Origin: Jaapia argillacea MUCL 33604
Lineage: Eukaryota > Basidiomycota > Agaricomycetes > Jaapiales > Jaapiaceae
Reading direction: 5' to 3'
Assembly: GCA_000697665.1 (NCBI GenBank)
Contig: KL197770.1
Location: 5,712 to 69,711 of the forward strand
DNA: 64,000 bases
The notes below the pieces were generated by a model. The model saw nothing but the letters and a program-made list of their open reading frames with translations, did not search any database and was not told the origin of the DNA. Of this stretch, positions 4,701-5,222 are shown in pieces (the first letter of the stretch is position 1; each line of letters starts with the position of its first letter). The position numbers were made by a program, and so were the translations under genes.

Positions 4701-5222
4701 CGGAGATAGTTGAAAACGATGGAGGATAATCACCTGATAACCTCTTTGATCAGGTAATGCCGATCATCATTCTCGACGGCGGGAACTTCGGCTTTGACCT
4801 CGTTGCCATCAGTTGCGGCGGTCGTAGTCTGCCCTGAAGGATTCGTCTCTGTGACATTCGGAGCGAGGACGTCTAACTTCAGAAGATCCGGAGGATCCCC
4901 ACCAGCTATAAGGAAGGAGGGCGGGACAAGTTTACAACTGAAACTCGGATTGAACGTTTTGTCCATAGTACTTACTGGGAAAGTCTAGATAGAATGTGTT
5001 GGTTAGAATGTATGGTGCATAGAATAAATACTGACATGTTGGTGATGTTGGGATCGACGGACTCGTAGGAAAATAACGGGGTGATGTTGGGCTAAACTGA
5101 GGTGACGGGCAATAGTCTCCGACCGGCGATGGAGGTGAAGAGGTGAAATAAGGTGAATCCGGTGGCGAGTAGTCAGGATTCGTGGGGTCGGGGTTTCGCG
5201 ATCTCGAGTAGAAGGGCGACAT
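1777..5222 (-). CDS. AAA ATPase array copy 1, with CTD-like N-terminus
   Basis: This full-length gene of about 17 exons encodes roughly 700 residues. The ATG at 5220-5222 opens a Ser/Pro/Tyr-rich leader ([13 protein letters not shown]) containing [20 protein letters not shown] heptads at 5037-5096. A short hinge, the shared LIKEVIR block, the DUF7025-like domain and an AAA core follow. The core has Walker A (GPPGTGKT), Walker B (VLLIDEAD), a sensor-1-like LFLTTNR, and FDEAFMSRF carrying the likely arginine finger. The protein ends with a helical lid (ISAEDLEFLSAKTFNG) and EKFLDEFG. The intron after SLHE uses a GC donor (gcgagt), as in the other copies. It lies on the opposite strand to the right-hand copies. 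Family members are usually of unknown function, and the substrate cannot be inferred. I saw no lesion, but exon borders were placed by eye. Confidence 0.82.

Follow-up and report, generated by a model that had tools for sequence, protein, structure and literature searches.

Seven related AAA genes in the window

Self-comparison of the window (the whole 64-kb stretch of DNA analysed here) revealed seven paralogues, c0–c6, of one gene encoding a DUF7025 and an AAA domain. On the minus strand lie c0 (1–923), which is truncated by the window edge and whose N-terminus was read by eye, and c1 (1777–5222; 729 aa), while the plus strand carries c2 (20593–23891; 702 aa), c3 (24954–28350; 748 aa), c4 (29371–32894; 771 aa), c5 (33763–36897; 665 aa) and c6 (37928–41078; 671 aa). 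As discussed below, c1–c4 begin with a leader that contains heptads; the N-terminus of c0, c5 and c6 is short and has none. The preliminary description of this locus omitted both the degenerate leader of c4 and the three leaderless copies.

A first automatic gene model gave introns that were discordant between copies and was replaced by alignment-guided models. With these, all six full copies have an open frame of 665–771 residues and matching introns; those in c1, c3, c4, c5 and c6 were placed by transfer from c2 and are not independent predictions. Each of the six retains the Walker A, Walker B and sensor-1 motifs (GPPGTGKT, LLIDEAD and LTTNR). Two of the six, c1 and c5, were scanned against Pfam, and both exceeded the cut-offs for AAA (68.7 and 67.7 bits; cut-off 21.2) and DUF7025 (33.7 and 34.5 bits; cut-off 27), which bears out the AAA+ ATPase body proposed earlier. 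In this they resemble the fungal DUF7025–AAA ATPases (PF22942 with PF00004, and a PF23232 lid), but AAA_lid_13 scored 15.7 and 13.2 bits in c1 and c5, under its cut-off of 27.

Against PDB, the c1 body matched Cdc48/p97 and other classic AAA proteins at the top (best E 8.7e-14 among the best 60 of 211 sequences). Within those 60 the likeness to Cdc48/p97, Afg2, NVL/Rix7 and spastin was to the AAA core alone, and the N-terminal half of the body had no match. Strong purifying selection acts on the c1–c4 bodies, with dN of 0.066–0.085, dS of 0.30–0.36 and dN/dS of 0.21–0.26.

Residues 476–643 of c2 had as their best NCBIfam match the bacterial anti-phage ATPase IteA (E 8.3e-13; 48.2 bits against a cut-off of 510), which outranked the proteasome-activating nucleotidases and CDC48; this is a similarity of the core only, and a lead on where these fungal AAA proteins came from.

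Several splice sites in the family are unusual. GC–AG introns are conserved in position across the family (intron 18 of c1–c6 and intron 13 of c2–c6), and further GC–AG sites occur at 29936 in c4 (donor GC), 21204 in c2 and 38936 in c6. Intron 12 is found in c1, c2, c5 and c6; its donor is missing in c3 and c4, which read through in frame (26991–26748 region). The c4 acceptor at 30645 reads GG, and this may be a sign of a decaying copy.

N-terminal leaders of four copies

The leader is an extra first exon that lies, in c1–c4, between the start codon and an acidic linker. Exon 1 of c1 (5036–5222, minus strand) opens at the first ATG and holds the three heptads reported earlier at 5037–5096: FSPTSPR (5096–5076), YFPTSPS (5075–5055) and IPTSPT (5054–5037). 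A subsequent YFP had also been placed in heptad register, and this is true after splicing, not in the unspliced frame. The leader intron (GTCAGT..TCTAG; 4985–5035), at a position common to c1 and c4, splits a Tyr codon that opens a last, partial heptad, and a mini-exon of 9 bases (4976–4984) carries the register on as Y-F-P-T.

In c2, exon 1 (20593–20749, plus strand) encodes YSPTSPS (20665–20685) and FSPKSPA (20710–20730). The YTPTSPS also attributed to this copy is the unspliced reading of 20731–20751, which becomes YTPTSPT-Y once spliced. Exon 1 of c3 (24954–25092, plus strand) has the single YSPTSPS described before (25053–25073), and exon 2 (25225–25248, plus strand) encodes PSTKKAKL, a stretch found by eye in c3 only that we take to resemble a classical nuclear localization signal. 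The c4 leader (29371–29694, plus strand) comprises exon 1, a leader intron (29633–29685) and a mini-exon; its heptads are degenerate (YYPQSPV and FMPDSPT-YSPT), the sequence after the leader intron reading Y-S-P-T. Counting [ST]P sites gave 10, 9, 4 and 5 in the leaders of c1, c2, c3 and c4, respectively.

All four copies preserve the start codon and the reading frame, as well as the donor of exon 1 and its phase. In c1 and c2 an in-frame stop lies upstream of the start codon, and there is no Met from M1 to the conserved block, which starts at residue 110 in c1 and 82 in c2. The region upstream of c2 (20480–20597) is homologous to that of the leaderless c5 (33650–33767; 73.7%) up to the start codon. 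Translation from the M1 of the leader is, on the sequence, well supported for c1 and c2. Internal Met residues ahead of the conserved block do occur in c3 (Met91) and c4 (Met82).

Resemblance to the Rpb1 C-terminal domain

Leaders and the Rpb1 C-terminal domain (CTD) share heptad spacing, Tyr or Phe, Pro3 and Ser5-Pro6. They differ in that the leaders are N-terminal, have one to three sites against the 26 or so heptads of the budding yeast CTD, evolve fast and sit on a DUF7025–AAA body, not on the Rpb1 polymerase body. In a six-frame translation of the 64 kb, all five windows with at least six of seven matches to YSPTSPS (Phe allowed at position 1) fell within leaders, against 0.1 per 64 kb in 10 Markov-1 simulations; c1–c3 hold two exact YSPTSPS and three 6-of-7 matches. 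The available part of a report on divergent fungal CTDs (PMC9451162) describes Ser-Pro pairs as kept there and positions 1, 4 and 7 as variable.

We compared the leaders with PDB sequences and found that all matches of c1 (20 of 20; best E 3e-7) and c2 (18 of 18; best E 8.3e-9) were Rpb1 or CTD peptides. A shuffle that kept SP and TP, one for each of these two leaders, returned a single unrelated match each (E 0.86 and 1.1). The c3 matches, none with E below 1.6, comprised a CDK7 chain and five CTD peptides; c4 matched one CTD peptide (E 9.1).

In local alignment to an ideal CTD, with composition correction off, shuffles that left SP/TP units intact scored at or above the leader in 0 of 300 cases for c1, c2 and c4 and in 1 of 300 for c3. 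A cruder count of [YF]xPxSPx against SP-keeping shuffles was unusual for c2 (fraction 0.001) and c4 (0.006) and not unusual for c1 (0.09) and c3 (0.11). The preliminary description had called for a comparison with shuffled Ser/Pro-rich sequence; alignment and PDB matches uphold the heptads of c1 and c2 in this respect, and the crude count does not do so for c1 and c3. The Pfam Rpb1 repeat model PF05001 scored 15.7 bits in c1 and 17.3 in c2, under its cut-off of 20.3, and had no match in the c3 and c4 leaders. Together, these results show a CTD likeness beyond Ser/Pro richness in the sequences of c1 and c2, which is weak for c3 and c4.

Recent tandem duplication of DNA was considered as a source of the heptads and rejected. 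Adjacent heptads share 8–14 of 21 bases in c1 and 10–13 of 19–21 bases in c2, and no tandem array was found within the leaders; the codons differ from heptad to heptad, so that these are not DNA repeats of recent date.

According to the available part of PMC11502803, the consensus for Ser5 phosphorylation by human CDK7 is (YXPXSPX)Y, where the Tyr may belong to that heptad or to the one after it. Sites that fit this rule number three in c1, three in c2, one in c3 and two in c4, nine altogether, and none occurs in c5, in c6 or outside the leaders of the six full-length proteins. Shuffled leaders average 0.50, 0.34, 0.08 and 0.14 sites for c1–c4, and fractions of 0.0085, 0.0032, 0.073 and 0.006 reach the observed counts; summed, the shuffles average 1.06 and 0 of 20,000 SP-keeping shuffles reach nine, a test that covers four related leaders and does not amount to four independent ones. 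A homologous site is flanked by F..Y in c2 and by Y..F in c4, both of which the rule permits. The rule is that of the human enzyme, and we infer that it may be carried over to these leaders; to that extent, the earlier idea that they could be substrates of a CTD kinase has gained nine candidate sites.

Evolution of the leaders

At the DNA level, five of the six pairs show faster divergence in the leader than in the introns (0.228–0.302 against 0.188–0.247), the exception being c1–c2, in which leaders differ by 0.177 and introns by 0.214. The heptad block could be aligned in c1, c2 and c4, and its differences are spread evenly over the three codon positions.

Retention in the leaders was compared with drift in seven comparisons by four measures, 28 tests in all. 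The c1–c4 pair retains 30 of 57 residues and 2 of 9 [ST]P sites (28.7 and 2.8 expected under drift), and the c2–c4 pair 21 of 44 residues and 1 of 8 [ST]P sites (22.2 and 2.3 expected). By contrast with drift, which would leave 1.1, c1 and c2 keep 4 of 5 [ST]P sites (fraction 0.004, one of the 28 comparisons); c2 and c3 keep 21 of 29 residues against 17.4 expected (fraction 0.033).

When c1 or c2 was allowed to drift to the full divergence of c4, a CTD alignment score like that of c4 was found in 0 of 400 simulations each, and at about half that divergence in 37 and 8 of 400. Two or more CDK7-type sites were left after drift in a fraction of 0.019 at full divergence on the c4 branch and of 0.21–0.22 at half, a fraction at which drift could account for c4. 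At best, constraint on the leader is weak and uneven.

A common 403-base stretch, 92.8% identical, runs from the upstream region into the leader in c1 (5133–5534) and c2 (20281–20682). Past this stretch c1 resembles c4, with which it has the leader intron in common, and c1 is in this sense a mosaic, perhaps produced by gene conversion with an edge within the heptad exon.

Relatives outside the window

Scanning prokaryote genomes yielded two relatives among 144 pattern matches, on NYXK01000081.1 and NYXK01000092.1. Both contigs are titled as Deltaproteobacteria MAG, yet the genes have a fungal-type intron, and the contigs are probably eukaryotic (fungal) contamination of the MAG. Both relatives exceed the DUF7025 cut-off, and their AAA cores match those of the window copies at about 42–59%, too distant to date the leader. 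The [YF]xPxSPx pattern is absent from the two loci in all six frames (12.5 kb), a further difference between the leader-bearing copies and these two DUF7025–AAA genes. A scan of viral contigs gave 12 matching stretches, with no relative among them.

From c0, c5, c6 and these two relatives, few as they are, the sequences suggest that the leader lies outside the common plan of the family. The leader is not supported as a conserved module: three paralogues and both distant relatives do without it, its DNA outpaces introns in five of six pairs, and c1–c4 and c2–c4 stand at the level of drift. Loss of the conserved register had been named in the preliminary description as a reason to give up the idea, and the finding is divided, with c4 at drift and, against this, the [ST]P sites that c1 and c2 have kept.

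Among the papers listed from the literature searched (20 of 41 in one case), which includes few subscription papers, none showed an AAA+ protein with a CTD-like leader; DUF7025, PF22942 and PF23232 are mentioned nowhere in that literature.

Interpretation

The reading we prefer, at a probability of a little under one half (about 0.47), is that the leader is a lineage-specific, fast-evolving and probably disordered Ser/Thr-Pro-rich N-terminal tail, derived from an extra 5′ exon in four of the seven tandem copies, for proline-directed kinases, and CTD-like in c1 and c2. In this reading it most likely serves kinases of the CDK or MAPK class as a substrate and tunes where the ATPase ring is located or what it binds. 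The tails of c1 and c2 would have drifted into a CTD-like heptad register or been kept in it, with three CDK7-rule sites each. The analysis shows the gene models, a sequence likeness that goes beyond composition, which copies have the leader and how fast it evolves; disorder, phosphorylation, a binding partner and nuclear location are properties that we infer.

This reading is supported by the pace of the leader relative to introns, by c4 standing at drift and by the leaderless copies and relatives. It also draws on the six open, intron-consistent models, whose ATPase motifs are intact and whose bodies are under strong purifying selection, and on the [ST]P sites carried by every leader. Counting against a generic SP tail, Tyr, Pro3 and seven-residue spacing would be unneeded in one, and the shuffles were exceeded in four leaders; the c1 and c2 leaders matched Rpb1 and CTD peptides only, and c1–c2 [ST]P retention is above drift.

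The strongest rival, which we hold to be rather unlikely, is true CTD mimicry, in which CTD kinases would phosphorylate the c1 and c2 leaders and these would bind CTD readers (candidates being CID, WW and FF proteins, the Ess1 prolyl isomerase and capping factors) or join Pol II condensates. A hexameric ATPase, if that is what it forms, would present about 18 heptad-like sites, three on each of its six leaders, and so come near the 26 heptads of budding yeast. The exclusive PDB matches of c1 and c2 argue for mimicry, as do the nine CDK7 Ser5 sites confined to leaders, the exchanged F..Y and Y..F flanks that both satisfy the kinase rule, heptads that recur in different codons (adjacent c1 heptads share as few as 8 of 21 bases) and the NLS-like stretch of c3.

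Precedent comes from Trf4, Mpp6 and Sen1, whose CTD mimics bind the CID of Nrd1 in competition with the CTD, according to the available parts of PMC4186968 and PMC7110113. Like the leaders, these NIM sequences are CTD-resembling regions on non-polymerase proteins; their nuclear setting and predicted-disordered context may apply to the leaders as well. As described in those parts, however, a NIM is one short motif in which acidic residues precede a Tyr, and it binds in the unphosphorylated state, whereas the leaders have SP heptads instead of acidic motifs and, judging by their sequence, would need phosphorylation.

Mimicry is further weakened by the absence of constraint at the protein level when c4 is compared with c1 or c2, by the single heptad of c3 and the lack of a canonical one in c4, and by PF05001, which stays under its cut-off in c1 and c2 and has no match in c3 and c4. 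A fungal proteome has many SP-rich tails. Among so many, a chance tail with three sites is not very unlikely, and this feature was picked for standing out.

Only a little less probable is the fuller proposal that an AAA+ family acquired its own short Pol II CTD, its ring showing a multivalent, CDK-phosphorylatable mimic that would join or compete for CTD-binding factors, with copies that vary from 0 to 3 heptads and hence in recruitment strength. Were mimicry functional, this would be a CTD mimic made of true YSPTSPS heptads and not of a short acidic motif; carried by an energy-dependent remodeller, it would show how signalling of the CTD type can be moved onto a different protein. If it is not mimicry, the locus is a useful caution that a disordered, SP-rich tail can bear a striking likeness to the CTD although almost nothing holds back its evolution. 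The paralogues, with 0, 1, 2 (degenerate) and 3 sites, form a natural and directly testable set.

We consider it improbable that the leader is a functionless drifting tail, an exon as unconstrained as untranslated sequence, in which a likeness to the CTD arose by accident and is already being lost in c3 and c4. The leader does outpace introns in five of six pairs, drift explains what c1–c4 and c2–c4 retain, c4 has a GG acceptor and a GC donor, and three paralogues manage without a leader. Nevertheless, c1–c4 preserve the start codon and frame together with the exon 1 donor and its phase, c1 and c2 hold on to more [ST]P sites than drift would leave, and drift over the full c4 branch seldom gives two CDK7-type sites and in none of its simulations the c4 alignment score, results that soften at about half the divergence.

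That the leader belongs to the 5′ untranslated sequence, with the start of translation further downstream, a point on which the preliminary description's proposal could have failed, is very improbable: Met91 of c3 and Met82 of c4 would allow it, but c1 and c2 offer no Met before the conserved block, and the start codon of a leaderless copy ends the homologous upstream region.

Genomic surroundings

The neighbouring gene previously assigned to a SWI/SNF–RSC subunit was confirmed as Ssr4 (PF08549; E 2.6e-14). Six partial copies of its first part (20140–19860) lie near AAA copies, at 24525–24248, 28849–28622, 5678–5943, 1332–1520, 37485–37212 and 33354–33296, with 59–282 aligned bases at 73–83%; the remainder of Ssr4 that was tested is single-copy within the window. 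The unit that duplicates seems to carry, besides an AAA gene, the promoter of that gene and the 5′ end of Ssr4, which lies divergently to it.

An inverted repeat of 559 bases, 85% identical, is present at 16374–16927 and 62095–61559, with stops in the frames of its first copy. Eukaryotic and rich in introns, the window resembles the DNA of a basidiomycete yeast in gene content and intron style, and Pfam matches also identify genes for an OPT oligopeptide transporter (41478–43651, plus strand), a pro-kumamolisin activation domain protein (47809–48423, minus strand) and a glycosyl transferase family 3 protein (62578–63312, minus strand). The sole Rfam match at the gathering threshold is a snR52/Z13 C/D-box snoRNA (57839–57950, plus strand).
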